This document shows, one piece after another, positions 15,952 through 39,458 of a stretch of 64,000 nt of DNA (within the stretch, counting starts at the first letter, position 1; every line of letters starts with the position of its first letter). Origin of the DNA: Bacteriovoracaceae bacterium. GTDB lineage: Bacteria > Bdellovibrionota > Bacteriovoracia > Bacteriovoracales > Bacteriovoracaceae. Position numbers and translations under genes: made by a program. The stretch covers positions 1 through 64,000 of the forward strand of contig JAEUWD010000017.1 in the NCBI GenBank assembly GCA_016786485.1, given 5' to 3'. The notes under the pieces were generated by a model. That model was not told where the DNA came from. It worked only from the letters and a program-made list of their open reading frames with translations, and made no database searches.

Positions 15952-16848
15952 TTAAGCAGCTGCTTTCGCAGGAGCAACTTCTTTTAACGTTTTGTAATCA
16001 ACGACAGATACATTCTGTTTATCATCAACAATCAAGAAGTGATTGGTTGGAACTTCTTTCCAATCTTTTTTAATATTCGTTAATTTTTCAGAAACGATCA
16101 GCACAGAGTGCTCATCTTTTTTTGTGATGTCACGCATACGGCAAACACCGTCGGAACATTCATAACGTGAACCCTCTGAGAAGTAGAGTGTTGATGCTGC
16201 TTCTGAGGTATCGGTAATGTATCGAAGAGCGATCAATCGATGACCGTCTGATAAAACGATATTAATATAATCATTTGAAGTTACGCCAAATTCTTTTTTC
16301 ATTTCGACAATTTCGTCAATGGTTTGTTTTAAAACTTCCACCATTTGAGTGGCGGTTGGATTGTTTTTATATTTTTGGTGTAAATTATGAATGAAGAGAG
16401 CAAAAATATGTTCACTATCAGTTGAACCTCTAACCCAATTATAAACTTCATCTGATAATTTTCGCTTAAGATAACGTTTGATTGTTTGAAAATCATCAAC
16501 AGAACCGTTATGCATAAACAGAAAGTTTTTGTATTGAAATGGGTGGCAATTTGCTTCCGATACTTCGCCAACATTAGCGGCACGGACGTGAGCAAAAAAA
16601 CAATTAGATAAAATTTTCTTCGAAAGCGAGGTTAGATTTCTATCATTCCAAGCTGGTCGAATTGAAGTGTACAAAGCTGGTTCATTATCCAGGCTATGTT
16701 CATACCAACCAATACCAAATCCATCACCGTTGAGTGGTTCTTCTGCTTCATTGGCCGCAATACTTTGCTTTATAAGCGAATTTTTTGGCCCATACAGTAA
16801 ATCATACATTAATAATGGTTTACCGCTGTAAGCAAGAAATCGGCACAT
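15952..16848 (-). CDS. Class II glutamine amidotransferase (YafJ-like)
   Basis: 298 aa. MCRFLAYSG places the N-terminal nucleophile Cys at position 2, exposed after Met removal. HVRAANVG, NCHPF and HNGSVDDF are the Ntn-hydrolase glutaminase motifs. There is no synthase domain, so this is a stand-alone GATase of the YafJ/Egt-C-like type that hydrolyses gamma-glutamyl amides; the substrate is unknown. AGGAGC precedes the ATG. A good sigma-28-type promoter lies at 16885-16911, which would tie this metabolic-looking gene to motility or attack phase. Confidence 0.9.
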   Translation of the reverse strand: MCRFLAYSGKPLLMYDLLYGPKNSLIKQSIAANEAEEPLNGDGFGIGWYEHSLDNEPALYTSIRPAWNDRNLTSLSKKILSNCFFAHVRAANVGEVSEANCHPFQYKNFLFMHNGSVDDFQTIKRYLKRKLSDEVYNWVRGSTDSEHIFALFIHNLHQKYKNNPTATQMVEVLKQTIDEIVEMKKEFGVTSNDYINIVLSDGHRLIALRYITDTSEAASTLYFSEGSRYECSDGVCRMRDITKKDEHSVLIVSEKLTNIKKDWKEVPTNHFLIVDDKQNVSVVDYKTLKEVAPAKAAA

Positions 16849-16884: not shown

Positions 16885-16911
16885 TTATCGGTTAATTAGG
16901 CTTAGACTTGA
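16885..16911 (-). promoter_or_regulatory. Sigma-28 (FliA)-type promoter
   Basis: Read on the minus strand: TCAAGTCT, exactly 11 bp, then ACCGATAA. This is 6/8 and 7/8 against TAAAGTTT-N11-GCCGATAA. Predicted start of transcription is near 16878, giving a leader of about 30 nt for the amidotransferase. Confidence 0.6.
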
Positions 16912-32634: not shown

Positions 32635-33666
32635 ATGAAACCAGAGCAGTCAGAACGATTCTACATTGAAGAACTCTTTAGCCAATCAACGCAGAAAGGC
32701 TTGGTGAAATGTAATCAACTCAAAGAGATTGATAAGTTGACCGGTGATGCTTCAACACGTCGTTATTACCGTTTATTCTGCCAAAATGATTCATACGTTG
32801 TGTGTTTAGATAATCCAACCGTGGATGACATCGCGACGAGCCCCTTTGTAGACATGCAAAAATTCCTCGAAGGTAAAAATATTCGTGTGCCTAAAATCTA
32901 CGATATGAATTTAAAGAGAGGATATCTCCTAGAAGAAGATCTAGGTGATATGACTTTGTTACAAAAACTAGGACAATTAGAAAATATTCAAGCTGAACAT
33001 GAAATTTATCATAAAGTGATTGTTGAACTGGTAAAACTGCATAAGATATCGGCCAAAGATATGGCGGCTAATAATGTCGTTAAACTTTCTTTTGATTATG
33101 AAAAATATAAACAAGAGATTGATTTCACGTTCAAGTTTTACCTTAAATTATTTTTGAAAGTCACGAGCGAAGAAAAACTTGAAGAATTATCGAAATTATT
33201 TGATCCAGTTTTAGAGCGTTTAGCTAATGAAAAACGTGTTCTTACTCATCGCGATTTTCATTCGAGAAACTTGATGGTGAAAAATAATGAATTGGTCGTT
33301 ATCGACTTTCAAGATGCGAGAATGGGAATTCCTCAATACGATTTAGTTTCACTGCTGGAAGATTGTTATTACAAAGTTCATGGTGAAAACAAAAAGAAAC
33401 TCATCGATTTTTATTGGAAAGAAATGTCAGGTGTTGATCATGGTCAGAAAGATTTTAATAAGTTCATGGGATTTTACCATGACATGACTATCCAACGCGT
33501 CTTTAAAGCGATTGGCAGCTTCGCCTATATTTACAATACGAGAAAAGATGAGCGATACTTAAAGTACATCGGATTTGGCATGGAAAAACTTCGTGTGACA
33601 ATGCTCAAGAGCGATATGTACAAAGACTTGAGAAAGTGTTTATTTAAAATCTATTATGAAAACTGA
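32635..33666 (+). CDS. amgK: AmgK-like N-acetylmuramate/N-acetylglucosamine 1-kinase
   Basis: 343 aa, the size of Pseudomonas AmgK (about 340). APH-fold kinase with catalytic loop LTHRDFHSRNLMV (about residue 204), DFQDARMG (about 223, metal-binding Asp) and PQYDLVSLLEDCY. AmgK phosphorylates C1 of cell-wall amino sugars so that MurU can make the UDP sugar, bypassing de novo synthesis. The pairing with a nucleotidyltransferase that overlaps by 11 bp supports this over a generic choline-kinase-like call. Confidence 0.85.
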   Translation: MKPEQSERFYIEELFSQSTQKGLVKCNQLKEIDKLTGDASTRRYYRLFCQNDSYVVCLDNPTVDDIATSPFVDMQKFLEGKNIRVPKIYDMNLKRGYLLEEDLGDMTLLQKLGQLENIQAEHEIYHKVIVELVKLHKISAKDMAANNVVKLSFDYEKYKQEIDFTFKFYLKLFLKVTSEEKLEELSKLFDPVLERLANEKRVLTHRDFHSRNLMVKNNELVVIDFQDARMGIPQYDLVSLLEDCYYKVHGENKKKLIDFYWKEMSGVDHGQKDFNKFMGFYHDMTIQRVFKAIGSFAYIYNTRKDERYLKYIGFGMEKLRVTMLKSDMYKDLRKCLFKIYYEN

Positions 33667-34624
33667 TTATTGTCTTATTCTCTCCGCCGGCTTCGGTACC
33701 CGAATGCGAAGTATTGGTCAGCGTATCCCAAAGCCCATGTGGCCAGTTTTTGAAAAAACCATTATTGAATTACAAATTGACTATGCCCGTATGTTGGGTT
33801 GCAAAGAAATTTTTGTCAACCTTCACCATATGACGGAAGAAGTGCTCAATTATTTTCATCACAAAGAAGAATATGAAGATATTCATTTTTTGATTGAAAA
33901 AGAAATTTTAGATATCGGTGGTGCGATTCATAATCTTGCTCAAAGAGATTTTGTGAATTATAAGGGCAGCCTCATGATTAATAATGGGGACCAGTTCTTG
34001 TTTTTTGACTGGAAAAAACTTAAGGAAATTGAAAAACATTTTTCGAACTATAAAGCAGTACTGATGGCGGTTAAAGTTGATCCGATTTGGGGTCATGGCC
34101 AAACTCTTCTCGATAAAGATGATCATTTAAGTAAAATCATTCCGAATAAAGAAATTACGAGCCAAGATAGTATCTATACATATTCTGGTTTGGGTTTTAT
34201 TGATTTAGCAAAATTAAAGCCCAGCAAAGGTAAGTCAAGTCTTTATGATTCGGTAGTCACCTATAAAACTGATCCGATAAAAATGGTGAAAGTAGATGAA
34301 TATGAATATTGGGATTTTGGAACCATTGATCGTTATTGGCACTCATTATTTCAAATCTTAATCGACGAAAAAGTCAAAAAAGAAAGCAGCTTTATAGAAT
34401 TTCTTCACGAGAAAGGTGCTATCAATCAAGCTAGCCTCAATCTTGAAAAGTTATCTTATAACGCTGATAAATTTTCGATAAACTTAAGTTCACAAGCCTG
34501 GAGTAGTTCAAAGCCAGGTCAAATTGTTTTAGCGAGCCGTCATAAAGCCGTTTCTGCAGAGGGACCAGGTGTTATTTGTGGTGAGCTGTTTGAGAAAGTC
34601 GAAAGTAAAATCAAGTTTCCTTAA
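33656..34624 (+). CDS. murU: MurU-like sugar-1-phosphate nucleotidyltransferase
   Basis: 322 aa. N-terminal pyrophosphorylase signature LSAGFGTRMRSIGQRIPKPM, NLHHMTEEV, GGAIHNLAQ, MINNGDQFLF and a GHGQTLLDKDDHL segment. MurU turns MurNAc-1-phosphate plus UTP into UDP-MurNAc. It is about 100 aa longer than typical MurU, with an extra C-terminal region (after about 235) of no recognised family, possibly a degenerate left-handed helix. It overlaps amgK by 11 bp and the convergent ferredoxin by 14 bp. Confidence 0.82.
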   Translation: MKTDYCLILSAGFGTRMRSIGQRIPKPMWPVFEKTIIELQIDYARMLGCKEIFVNLHHMTEEVLNYFHHKEEYEDIHFLIEKEILDIGGAIHNLAQRDFVNYKGSLMINNGDQFLFFDWKKLKEIEKHFSNYKAVLMAVKVDPIWGHGQTLLDKDDHLSKIIPNKEITSQDSIYTYSGLGFIDLAKLKPSKGKSSLYDSVVTYKTDPIKMVKVDEYEYWDFGTIDRYWHSLFQILIDEKVKKESSFIEFLHEKGAINQASLNLEKLSYNADKFSINLSSQAWSSSKPGQIVLASRHKAVSAEGPGVICGELFEKVESKIKFP

Positions 34625-35570: not shown

Positions 35571-35582
35571 GGAATGGTTTCC

Positions 35583-36017
35583 ATGAAGAGTTTTTTAATC
35601 GTCAGTTTGTTTATGACTTTAATTTCTTGTCAGTCACAAAATTCTCCAGAAAATGTTTTATCAAGTTTTGTTAAACAAAATTTTGCAGGAAAATTAAGTA
35701 AAAGCGACTTGTCTGATATGACCACCGGAAAACTCAAAGCTTATATAGATGAATTATCGGATGAAGAATTGGATGCTTATTTAAGCTTAGAAAATAATAA
35801 ATATAATAAGTTAAAAATTCTGCATAAAGCTTGTGAAGCAGAAAAATGTTTTTTAACCTACACCATTAATTATTCAACGACACAAGATGATAAAAAAACG
35901 TTTGAGACTGACACCAAAAAGATTGCGGAGATTGTTTTAGAAAATAAGCTCTGGAAAATTAGCAATATTGAGCATATCAAAACATATCACGATGCTAAAG
36001 AAGAAATCCGACCTTAG
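35583..36017 (+). CDS. Small lipoprotein, unknown function
   Basis: 144 aa. Start is ATG 35583 (AAGGA upstream); ATG 35574 adds three residues before the signal. Leader MKSFLIVSLFMTLISC is a lipobox, then a compact charged helical domain with one further Cys pair (KACEAEKCF). It is adjacent to the PilZ-like membrane gene and probably cotranscribed. The stop abuts the convergent gene's stop. Confidence 0.72.
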   Translation: MKSFLIVSLFMTLISCQSQNSPENVLSSFVKQNFAGKLSKSDLSDMTTGKLKAYIDELSDEELDAYLSLENNKYNKLKILHKACEAEKCFLTYTINYSTTQDDKKTFETDTKKIAEIVLENKLWKISNIEHIKTYHDAKEEIRP

Positions 36018-36725
36018 TTAGGTTCCGGACGCTTTCAAGTAATTATATTCGCTCGGATTATTTCCTGTTGAATTGACTTCACCATAGATAGAAATGTGCT
36101 TTAAATAAAAAGCATATCCAAACATAGCGGAAGTAAAATACCATCCGGCCAAAAATAATAAGCTGGATGAAAGAGCAATCGTTATCGCCCATGAGAAGAA
36201 AAGGATTTCTGCTAAAAAGTTTTTACGAATAGCATTGGTTGTAATTAATAAAGCGGGCTTAATGGACAGTTTGTTATAGTGCATAAGCGGTGCTAAATGC
36301 AGTATGTAAAGCGAAGAAATAAATTCAATCGCAAAACCAAATAAGCCTAATAACATGAATCGTGAATTGTACTCAGCGGCCCAAAAACATAATTGAGCGA
36401 CAGTTGATACGGCCATTTTGAAGTAAGCCAAGGGCAGCATGGATTTAACTAGATTTTTATCAGTTAAAAACCTAAAGAAATGTTTTTGATTATAATTTTT
36501 GTCTTTTATCCAGTGATGAAAGAAATCAAAAAGACTGAGGTAGAGTAGACAATACAAAAAACTCGAAAATAAAAGACCAAAAGCAGGCACAAGTTTAGCT
36601 CCTTGTGAAATCACAAAGAAACACGCACCTACATAGAGAAACGGTTTTTTATAAGTTTTGGTTTCGTGCCAAGCTGTGAAAAACCAGTCCCAACCATGCT
36701 CAAAAGGTATTTTATTTATCTGCAT
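36018..36725 (-). CDS. Polytopic inner-membrane protein, unknown function
   Basis: 235 aa with about six hydrophobic segments (near residues 28-42, 48-70, 98-120, 125-150, 172-195 and 197-215). The N-terminus (IPFEHGWDWFFTAWHET) is cytoplasmic. It resembles EI24-like/CysZ-type membrane proteins only loosely, and I would not assign it. A near-consensus sigma-28 promoter drives it (36763-36789), divergent from the promoter of the next gene. Confidence 0.72.
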   Translation of the reverse strand: MQINKIPFEHGWDWFFTAWHETKTYKKPFLYVGACFFVISQGAKLVPAFGLLFSSFLYCLLYLSLFDFFHHWIKDKNYNQKHFFRFLTDKNLVKSMLPLAYFKMAVSTVAQLCFWAAEYNSRFMLLGLFGFAIEFISSLYILHLAPLMHYNKLSIKPALLITTNAIRKNFLAEILFFSWAITIALSSSLLFLAGWYFTSAMFGYAFYLKHISIYGEVNSTGNNPSEYNYLKASGT

Positions 36726-36762
36726 TATTGCATCCTTGTTAAATATATATTCGTTTCCCTTC

Positions 36763-36789
36763 TTATCGGTTGTTGAGCAAAAAACTTAA
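36763..36789 (-). promoter_or_regulatory. Sigma-28 (FliA) promoter, near consensus
   Basis: On the minus strand: TTAAGTTT, exactly 11 bp, ACCGATAA. This matches TAAAGTTT-N11-GCCGATAA at 14 of 16 positions. Transcription start is predicted near 36756, about 30 nt before the 36018-36725 start. Confidence 0.72.
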
Positions 36790-36812
36790 GTATTATTCTC
36801 GGCCATTATATT

Positions 36813-36839
36813 TAAAGTATTAGTCGATATATCCGATAA
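36813..36839 (+). promoter_or_regulatory. Sigma-28 (FliA) promoter, near consensus
   Basis: TAAAGTAT (36813-36820), exactly 11 bp, TCCGATAA (36832-36839): 14 of 16 positions match. The ATG of the 36847 gene begins 8 nt past the -10, so the transcript would be leaderless or nearly so. It is divergent from the promoter at 36763-36789. Confidence 0.75.
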
Positions 36840-36846
36840 GATAACT

Positions 36847-37380
36847 ATGGGAAGCGACCGTTTTAATGACGATTTTATTACCAAACTTGTAGACGAAACT
36901 CTGAGTGGAGTTGCACTTCGTCCTGATAAAAAGGAACAAAAGAAGCGCGACACTTACTTTGAGAAGAAGCGTATTGGAAAACGATTATCCAAAGGCTTGG
37001 TCAGTTCGATGAAAATCTTCTGCGAAGAACACAATATCTTTAGTAGTTATGGTGAATTCGATGAGAAGTCGGGTTGCTTTCGTTATCAATTAGGTGAAGA
37101 AGAACTCTATATTCCAAGTAATTGGGGTGCTTTTGATATTCATCATATGCCAGAAAAGATCGGCTTATTCTTTAAAATGGAAAAGCATGATCCTAATATG
37201 TTCTTAGAGGTTATCTCTAAGCATGTGGCGCAAAAATTTGTGCAGATTTACTGTTTTAAAGAAAAGGACGAGTTCCTGTTAGTCTTTTTAAATCGGTTTC
37301 ATGCCAAAATGCATGGACCATTTTTCGAAGATGTTTGCGATCATCAATCTGTAGCGGATAAAATAAAAAAGGCCAGCTAA
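36847..37380 (+). CDS. Cytoplasmic protein of unknown function under a sigma-28 promoter
   Basis: 177 aa, no signal or membrane segment. It has a Lys/Arg-rich N-terminal helix (RPDKKEQKKRD...KKRIGKRL), then an alpha/beta domain with aromatic patches (YIPSNWGAFDIHHMPEKIG). No family is recognised. It has no Shine-Dalgarno; the near-perfect FliA promoter puts the mRNA start at the ATG. Its stop codon is the loop of the terminator hairpin. Confidence 0.75.
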   Translation: MGSDRFNDDFITKLVDETLSGVALRPDKKEQKKRDTYFEKKRIGKRLSKGLVSSMKIFCEEHNIFSSYGEFDEKSGCFRYQLGEEELYIPSNWGAFDIHHMPEKIGLFFKMEKHDPNMFLEVISKHVAQKFVQIYCFKEKDEFLLVFLNRFHAKMHGPFFEDVCDHQSVADKIKKAS

Positions 37381-37392
37381 GCTGGCCTTTTT
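37362..37392. terminator. Bidirectional intrinsic terminator containing the stop codon
   Basis: GGCCAGC (37371-37377), loop TAA (the gene's own stop), GCTGGCC (37381-37387), flanked by an A-run and a T-run. It serves the 36847 gene and the convergent endonuclease-IV-like gene. Confidence 0.92.
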
Positions 37393-37402
37393 CTTCTTCA
37401 GT

Positions 37403-38245
37403 TTACTGAAGACTCATATAATATTCTTTCATTTTTACAGCATCTTTTTCAAGGTTTGGACTGTTGCAGATAATATATCCACGACAATCTTCATCTTTAA
37501 GCGCTCTTAATAAATCTTTCCAATTAAAGTCAGATTGATCAAGGTTTAGGTGTTTTAAGTCACCTTTAGAGTTACTGCTAATACCAGAAATATGGATGTG
37601 CATTTGCTTAAGCGCTTTTGCACCCAGTTCTTGCTTAAGAACTTTTAAAACTTCTACAAATTCTTCATAAGTATTGTACTGACCTGAACGAGCGTAAAGG
37701 TGTGAGAAGTCCATACAAGGCTTACAGCTGTTTACTGATTTAGTTAAACTAATTAGCTCTTCAAGTGAACCAAACTGACTTGATTTACCAGTAAGCTCAG
37801 GGCGAAGTTCAATTTCAATATCAAGACGAGAAAGACGTTCTTCAATAACGTTCATACTTTTCTCAACCAGATCAAAAACGTCATATGGCGAATCTTTCAT
37901 GTAGAAAGCCGCGTGGAAGGTCATCGATTCAGCACCGCAAAGATCAGAGATTTTAGCTGTCTGAATGATTCTTTCTACTGAAGAATCGATTTTATCTTGT
38001 TCGCGAGCATTTAAATTAATGTAGTAAGGACCATGAGAAGTAAGTGGAATACCTAGTTCGTAAGAAACTTTACGAAGCGCAGATGAAACTTCTTCTTTCA
38101 TGCGCACGCCATGAGCGAACTCAAGTTGCATACAATCCAGACCTAGTTCATGAATACGCTTAACCCCTTCAACCGGGTTACTTTTTTTCACTGTGCTATT
38201 CGGAACTCCAGCCGTACCAAACAATAAACGTTCAAACATAATCAC
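37403..38245 (-). CDS. Endonuclease IV / xylose-isomerase-like TIM barrel protein
   Basis: 280 aa, a size typical of Nfo. Metal-site segments line up: HGPYYINL, TFHAAFY, ELRPELTG, CMDFSHLYAR, HIHISGI and KGDLKHLNL. The last ligand, normally Glu in an ETP/ESP segment, appears as Asn (IICNSPNL). It may be an AP endonuclease with an altered third-metal site, or a sugar isomerase/epimerase relative. The BFD-like gene lies 7 nt upstream in the same direction. Confidence 0.82.
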   Translation of the reverse strand: MIMFERLLFGTAGVPNSTVKKSNPVEGVKRIHELGLDCMQLEFAHGVRMKEEVSSALRKVSYELGIPLTSHGPYYINLNAREQDKIDSSVERIIQTAKISDLCGAESMTFHAAFYMKDSPYDVFDLVEKSMNVIEERLSRLDIEIELRPELTGKSSQFGSLEELISLTKSVNSCKPCMDFSHLYARSGQYNTYEEFVEVLKVLKQELGAKALKQMHIHISGISSNSKGDLKHLNLDQSDFNWKDLLRALKDEDCRGYIICNSPNLEKDAVKMKEYYMSLQ

Positions 38246-38648: not shown

Positions 38649-39458
38649 TTGCAGACATTAAAGATTTTAGTTTTTATTTTGTTATCAATATTTATTGGAT
38701 TTCACCTAGGCTACATCCTTTTTCCATACGAATGGCGCTTAGTCATTTTGGCGTTATTGTGTTTGGGGGGAATCGGAGTCATTTTTTATGCTGATAAAAT
38801 CTTGTTGGCGCTTCTGCGCTCAAGAGAAGTTATTGATACCATTGAGCATTCATTTTTTCAGCGAATCAAAAACGTGGCCTTTAAACTAGGAACACCCTCA
38901 CCACGCGTTTTTGCTTATCGCGGAAACGTTTCGCGTATTTTTGCGCTTCAAAGTCGAAAAGATATTTCATTAGTTTTTGAAGCTAAGATCTTAAGTAAGC
39001 TTAGCCCGGAAGAACAGACCGCGCTTATTACTTATATGTTGTTAACTTTACGCGCCGGTGGAGCAAAACGCCGAACTCTTGTTTACGCGATTTCCTCTAT
39101 GCTTATTAATAGTCTCTATTTCTTGCGCGATAAGTTGACGACTTGGATGAAAATCAATTTTGTAAGTAACGCACTGGTGTTTTTGTATGCGTTGATTGTT
39201 CGGCCAATAGTCATCTCGCTTTTTTCGATCGCCTTTACGAAGAAAGAGAAACGTAAGATTAAGGCTTTACTCGCGACACATTTAACAGATAGTGAAATGT
39301 TGAATTCTGCCATGACTAAAATTAGTTATCGTACTTTCAATGAAGATCTGATTGAAAACACACTTATTAATTTCTTAAATCAAAAACCAAGTGATGGGAA
39401 AATCAAAAGATACGTGGATATTTTTGAAGTTTTTCCGGTGCTAGAGATTGATACATAA
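38649..39458 (+). CDS. HtpX/M48-like membrane protein lacking HExxH
   Basis: 269 aa; TTG start with GAGGG 6 nt upstream. Two N-terminal helices (about residues 5-24 and 28-52) are followed by FFQRIKNVAFKLGTPSPRVFAY, IFALQSRKDISLVFEAKILSKLSPEEQTALIT, the usual M48 order around NAFA and the catalytic helix. Where HExxH should lie is TYMLLTL, so the zinc site is gone. Two more membrane helices follow at about 140-200. A regulatory pseudo-protease is possible. It overlaps the kinase frame only if the latter starts at TTG 39448. Confidence 0.75.
   Translation: MQTLKILVFILLSIFIGFHLGYILFPYEWRLVILALLCLGGIGVIFYADKILLALLRSREVIDTIEHSFFQRIKNVAFKLGTPSPRVFAYRGNVSRIFALQSRKDISLVFEAKILSKLSPEEQTALITYMLLTLRAGGAKRRTLVYAISSMLINSLYFLRDKLTTWMKINFVSNALVFLYALIVRPIVISLFSIAFTKKEKRKIKALLATHLTDSEMLNSAMTKISYRTFNEDLIENTLINFLNQKPSDGKIKRYVDIFEVFPVLEIDT

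Follow-up and report, generated by a model that had tools for sequence, protein, structure and literature searches.

A predicted sigma-28 promoter ending at the start codon of a Bacteriovoracales gene whose product has a GAF-like predicted fold

Introduction

Two divergent genes in a Bacteriovoracaceae genome are separated by a short intergenic stretch with a near-consensus sigma-28 (FliA) site directed at each of them, which raises the question of whether these sites are real promoters, what the genes encode, and when they would be expressed. Here, we analysed the locus in its window, the whole 64,000-nt stretch of DNA under study, and in related genomes. Our main reading, to which we give roughly a two-in-three probability, is that a real FliA promoter produces a leaderless attack-phase mRNA, and that the GAF-like protein it encodes is short-lived. 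In this reading we infer the FliA dependence, start, timing, instability and GAF function, and the sequence-based support consists of the sites, their conservation, the fixed spacing, the absent Shine-Dalgarno (SD) sequence, synteny and a conserved C-terminal tail.

Results

Two divergent sigma-28 sites in one intergenic region

The sites and their genes are the following.

36763-36789, minus strand: putative sigma-28 promoter of the membrane gene; -35 TTAAGTTT at 36782-36789, N11, -10 ACCGATAA at 36763-36770; 2 mismatches in 16
36813-36839, plus strand: sigma-28 promoter of the soluble gene; -35 TAAAGTAT at 36813-36820, N11, -10 TCCGATAA at 36832-36839; 2 mismatches in 16
36018-36725, minus strand: membrane protein of 235 aa, remotely BPSS1780-like; SD AAGGAT at 36732-36737
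36847-37380, plus strand: soluble protein of 177 aa with the C-terminus KKAS; undescribed Bacteriovoracales family, GAF-like predicted fold

Pattern matching on the sequence reproduced what the first-pass annotation had described, namely two divergent FliA sites that each match at 14 of 16 positions across an exact 11-nt spacer, and the two open reading frames have the limits and lengths given above, as it had claimed. Both sites also fit a TAAA(G)-type -35 box and a CCGATAA -10 box with 15-16 nt from AAG to CCGA, and they are the only sigma-28 sites with at most two mismatches in the window. When the 121-bp stretch between the divergent genes was shuffled 40,000 times (Markov-1), a site with at most two mismatches arose at a frequency of 2.3e-4 per given strand, and none of the 40,000 shuffles carried sites on both strands. 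Across the 2.98-Mb genome, 16 such sites were found compared with 6 for the reversed pattern, so the pattern alone leaves about one third of single matches as chance. A looser genome scan with TNAAG-N-CCGATA gave, among the first 100 matches listed, an excess at spacers 15 (12 matches) and 16 (13 matches); other spacers mostly had 3 to 9, but spacer 9 also had 12. The AT-rich composition of the stretch (29% G+C) would favour the view that both matches are chance or background, to which we assign a negligible probability, since the plus site is kept across the order at a fixed distance and this already contradicts such a view there.

A third sigma-28-like site lies at 16885-16911 on the minus strand (TCAAGTCT-N11-ACCGATAA, 3 mismatches); the gene for a class-II glutamine amidotransferase (15952-16848, PF13230) begins about 36 nt downstream of it. 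In the same genome, good FliA sites at five loci (L002, L003, L006, L010 and L015) stand 6-36 nt before start codons; the genes behind them, encoding a Ser/Thr kinase (L006) and proteins with no confident family assignment, are candidates for the same regulon.

The plus-strand site is conserved across the order

A FliA site was present upstream of soluble-gene homologues in 24 of 32 genera, or 25 if one weaker copy is counted, and was missing in about seven or eight. For scoring, we gathered 63 named loci through a conserved TIM-barrel neighbour, from relatives named Bacteriovorax, Halobacteriovorax or Bacteriovoracaceae, and searched 4-22 nt before the start codon, with 388 other genes of the same loci as controls. 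A site scoring at least 9 was found in 83% of the loci and 2.1% of the control genes, and one scoring at least 10 in 62% and 0.3%, respectively; these figures slightly favour the targets, because the choice of start among in-frame ATGs was made knowing where the site lay, a bias that the conserved N-terminus of the soluble protein limits. The start codon is secure because a conserved N-terminal motif begins directly after it.

Upstream of the homologues, a -10 box of the CCGATAA type recurred with its end 6-7 nt from the ATG; the distance was 6 or 7 nt in 32 of 52 scored loci. The 35 sites with short spacing share an invariant T at position 1 and A at position 3 of the -35 box, and CGA in the -10 box. 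The conservation data settle the plus site as real, and we conclude from these comparisons that it is a FliA promoter of a new Bacteriovoracales protein family, predicted to depend on FliA in vivo.

The sigma factor itself is encoded in the window's genome (TIGR02479, 265.9 bits against a cut-off of 189.6), and fliA exceeds the cut-off in 120 of 129 genomes. Loss of FliA was rejected as the cause of promoter loss: three promoter-less genomes (G060, G061 and G075) keep fliA, and only two (G120 and G122) have no fliA over the cut-off.

The mRNA of the soluble gene should be leaderless in most genera

36846-36848, plus strand: predicted start of transcription at the ATG or directly beside it, placed from the -10 box ending 7 nt before it

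In C. jejuni, sigma-28 transcripts have been mapped to begin 6-8 nt beyond CGATwt (PMC3847290). Two architectures were distinguished among the homologues. When the site stands 5-10 nt before the ATG, an SD core was found in 2 of 35 loci; when it stands 15-20 nt before the ATG, as in the Bacteriovorax stolpii clade and others, an SD sequence was found in 16 of 17. Given a -10 box that ends 6-7 nt before the ATG and no SD sequence, a leaderless mRNA is expected in the window and in most genera.

In C. jejuni and H. pylori, leaderless genes show little conservation; those of C. jejuni were described with sigma-70 promoters, and 1 of 23 was leaderless in every species (PMC3847290). A sigma-28 promoter joined to a start codon over more than 20 genera is unusual, because leaderless starts were poorly conserved in the group examined for this. 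The clade with the promoter further back and an SD sequence offers a natural experiment on the reason for keeping leaderless translation in non-growing, searching cells.

The putative minus-strand promoter lies before a gene found in the window only

35574-36017, plus strand: small putative lipoprotein, conserved upstream neighbour; in 35 relatives its homologue precedes the soluble gene by 19-97 nt
37403-38245, minus strand: endonuclease IV-like TIM barrel, convergent, conserved downstream neighbour; PF01261 E=4.9e-30, TIGR00587 below cut-off

Upstream of the soluble gene, the order is a LysM protein, a lipoprotein, an AmgK-like kinase, a MurU-like transferase, a PilZ-membrane protein and the small lipoprotein; downstream it is the convergent TIM barrel, a Fer2_BFD protein, an HtpX-like protein, a CHASE2 kinase and a response regulator. 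This order is kept in nearly all of 40 stretches. In relatives the small lipoprotein gene directly precedes the soluble gene, and the membrane gene is inserted between the two in the window only. No homologue of the membrane gene was found in 128 other genomes of the order, and its product has a remote resemblance to BPSS1780 (NF041043, E=3.4e-7, 29.7 bits, below the cut-off of 90).

Because the membrane gene is without relatives, the minus site is supported by its sequence alone. Such a gene brings no help from conservation, and together with the 6 reversed-pattern against 16 real matches genome-wide this leaves room for a chance match with the membrane gene using another promoter. We consider that quite unlikely, given a chance frequency of 2.3e-4 in this stretch, the correct strand, a leader (about 30 nt) that contains an SD sequence, and a position adjoining the FliA site conserved order-wide. 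We regard the minus site as a probable second FliA promoter, specific to this lineage, through which the recently inserted membrane gene comes under the same regulation as the soluble gene. The first-pass annotation had treated the two promoters as equals; this holds for the quality of the match, whereas conservation over the order belongs to the plus site and the minus site serves a gene of this genome only.

Several neighbours deserve separate mention. The TIM-barrel protein is remarkably well conserved, at 83-88% identity in 80 named loci across the whole order, while identity of the soluble protein convergent with it falls to about 20%. The adjacent AmgK-like kinase and MurU-like nucleotidyltransferase (32635-34624, plus strand) are below the NCBIfam cut-offs; they suggest a pair of muropeptide recycling genes kept beside the locus across the order. 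The HtpX-like protein (38649-39458, plus strand) has weak NCBIfam matches (E 7e-9, below cut-off), and may be a degenerate paralogue because its translation is without the usual HExxH zinc motif.

The soluble protein may resemble GAF domains in predicted fold

A single-sequence query identified homologues of the soluble protein in 26 other genomes, and an alignment query in about 97 of the 129 genomes of its family, as a single copy at one syntenic place; the rest of the phylum gave a single marginal match to the alignment query. No Pfam or NCBIfam match exceeded the cut-off, no convincing PHROG or PDB sequence match was obtained, and searches of Pfam, NCBIfam and PDB sequences returned no GAF profile or relative. 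Weak matches to Cas6, the theta subunit and viral structural proteins were discarded.

We then compared AlphaFold2 models of the window protein (pLDDT 82.6) and of the 140-aa form from the B. stolpii clade (pLDDT 73.4) with the PDB by Foldseek. GAF domains ranked top for both, with 4MCW at E 5e-4 and 9e-4, followed by cyanobacterial cyclase GAFs, the Lcd1 GAF (5W10) and PDE GAFs; the TM-scores of the GAF hits are about 0.4-0.5 with high rmsd, and the two models were built from one shared sequence set. The models resemble GAF domains with modest scores, and we take this as a lead only.

A conserved alanine tail suggests a ClpXP degron

37370-37391, plus strand: intrinsic terminator GGCCAGC-TAA-GCTGGCC-TTTTT, predicted from sequence and fold

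A tail of Ala-Ala, Ala-Ser or Ser-Ala ends 53 of 63 family members compared with 4 of 388 control proteins. Ala-Ala itself ends 42 of the 63 and none of the 388; the window protein ends in Ala-Ser. The ssrA tag of the host, GEQNFAMAA, likewise ends in Ala-Ala, and terminal Ala-Ala is the key element for ClpXP (PMC7652416). The tail thus suggests a ClpXP degron that would make the protein unstable.

In the window and in L187, L227, L232 and L245, the last codons of the gene form the 5′ arm of the terminator, with the stop codon as its loop in the window. Since the Ala-Ser codons of the window gene are part of the terminator stem, the tail could owe its sequence to the terminator there. In many relatives the hairpin is a distinct element beyond the stop codon, and their tail still reads Ala-Ala with mixed codons. 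We rejected the terminator as a general cause of the alanine tail for most relatives, while the caveat remains for the window's genome. The tail and the promoter tend to be missing together (Fisher p=0.015 by locus and 0.025 by genus), a weak association that is phylogenetically uncorrected.

The soluble protein is unlikely to be a flagellar or feedback factor

The window's genome encodes nine flagellins and a FlgL-like match. An exact 13-mer, GGCAAAATTTTCC, occurs on either strand 100-170 nt upstream of four of the nine flagellin genes (L036, L039, L040 and L041), with a near copy at L042; about 0.04 copies are expected per Mb, and none was found elsewhere in the 296 kb of own-genome sequence examined. 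It looks like a shared flagellin operator.

The soluble protein might be a structural or accessory flagellar, or a chemotaxis-linked, factor behind a true sigma-28 promoter, and its alanine tail might then be a motif for binding or a side effect of the terminator. Late flagellar genes are the classic targets of FliA, the region also holds flgL, flgK and flgM at a distance of about 25-28 kb, and the terminator arm shared by the window and four other loci would fit such a side effect. We consider this unlikely, since both genes sit outside flagellar operons, as originally noted, and the neighbours of the soluble gene (the AmgK-like, MurU-like, PilZ and endonuclease IV-like genes) belong to cell-wall recycling and other functions, none flagellar; moreover, the family is limited to one order while flagella are not, and the many relatives with a separate hairpin keep the Ala-Ala tail.

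Autoregulated anti-sigma factors such as FlgM are commonly transcribed by their own sigma factor. By this precedent, the soluble protein, which is single copy with no evident signal peptide, could act in negative feedback by binding FliA or FlgM and limiting attack-phase transcription. This is very improbable: 126 of 129 genomes carry a FlgM homologue, and the soluble protein has no similarity to it, a Pfam scan of the protein and its family giving no PF04316 match. In the window's genome flgM is a separate gene (PF04316, G000:C45:64667), so no feedback role is needed for the soluble protein, and its candidacy as a FlgM replacement was rejected.

Discussion

Returning to our main reading, we propose that transcription would begin at the A of the ATG or beside it and give a leaderless mRNA made only while FliA is free, that is, in the swimming attack phase. 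The product would be a small cytosolic GAF-like protein, probably a ligand- or partner-binding sensor module, and the Ala-Ala or Ala-Ser tail would probably permit removal by ClpXP, so that the protein level would track FliA activity closely. A bolder version, which we hold as doubtful, is a timer of the predatory cycle common to the order, in which a GAF-like ligand sensor made from a leaderless sigma-28 mRNA is destroyed by ClpXP and its loss, or its ligand, helps to trigger growth on prey; if true, the soluble protein would exist only while the predator swims.

The timing is taken from Bdellovibrio, in which TTAAG-N16-CCGATA was found in 92 of 140 attack-phase promoters, about two thirds (PMC3627812), and FliA is essential (PMC5430801). 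The premise of the first-pass annotation, that FliA is the attack-phase sigma factor, is true of Bdellovibrio (PMC3627812, PMC5430801); the host here, judging by the names of its relatives, belongs to Bacteriovoracales, to which the role has been carried over. Attack-phase expression of the soluble gene in this order is thus a prediction by analogy.

We regard the soluble gene as a strong order-wide FliA target of unusual architecture and the membrane gene as a plausible lineage-specific one. With its promoter arrangement kept in more than 20 genera, the soluble protein stands out as a candidate that is specific to the prey-hunting phase, and it provides one concrete order-wide attack-phase candidate outside Bdellovibrio with a directly testable promoter. 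The promoter ending at the ATG, the Ala-rich C-terminus and the GAF-like predicted fold are new here, beyond the first-pass annotation.

Comparison with known systems

The closest parallel is the FliA regulon of B. bacteriovorus (PMC3627812, PMC5430801), another predator, with the same promoter type (TTAAG/TAAAG ... CCGATA) and non-flagellar genes of unassigned function placed under FliA. In contrast, our locus belongs to another order, its protein family was not found outside Bacteriovoracales, and the start codon lies where transcription should begin. The AAG-to-CCGA spacer is 15 here and 16 as printed for Bdellovibrio, and both occur in the window's genome.

FlgM, the anti-sigma-28 factor (PF04316), is likewise a small cytosolic protein for which FliA control is expected; it is unrelated in sequence, and the true FlgM is encoded separately. 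GAF domains (the 4MCW GAF/HD-GYP protein, the Lcd1 GAF 5W10 and PDE GAFs) rank first in Foldseek for two family members, although the soluble protein has no sequence similarity to known GAF domains, modest TM-scores, and a stand-alone form without an output domain. The tail is comparable to ssrA-like C-terminal ClpXP degrons (PMC7652416) in its terminal Ala-Ala, an ending that the host tmRNA tag shares, whereas the window protein ends in Ala-Ser and the degron here is predicted from sequence.

Finally, the start resembles the leaderless mRNAs of Epsilonproteobacteria (PMC3847290) and Leptospira (PMC5243855), with a -10 box directly before the ATG, no SD sequence, and relatives that convert between leaderless and leadered forms. 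Unlike the sigma-70 leaderless genes of C. jejuni, the predicted arrangement here involves sigma-28 and is kept in most genera of an order.
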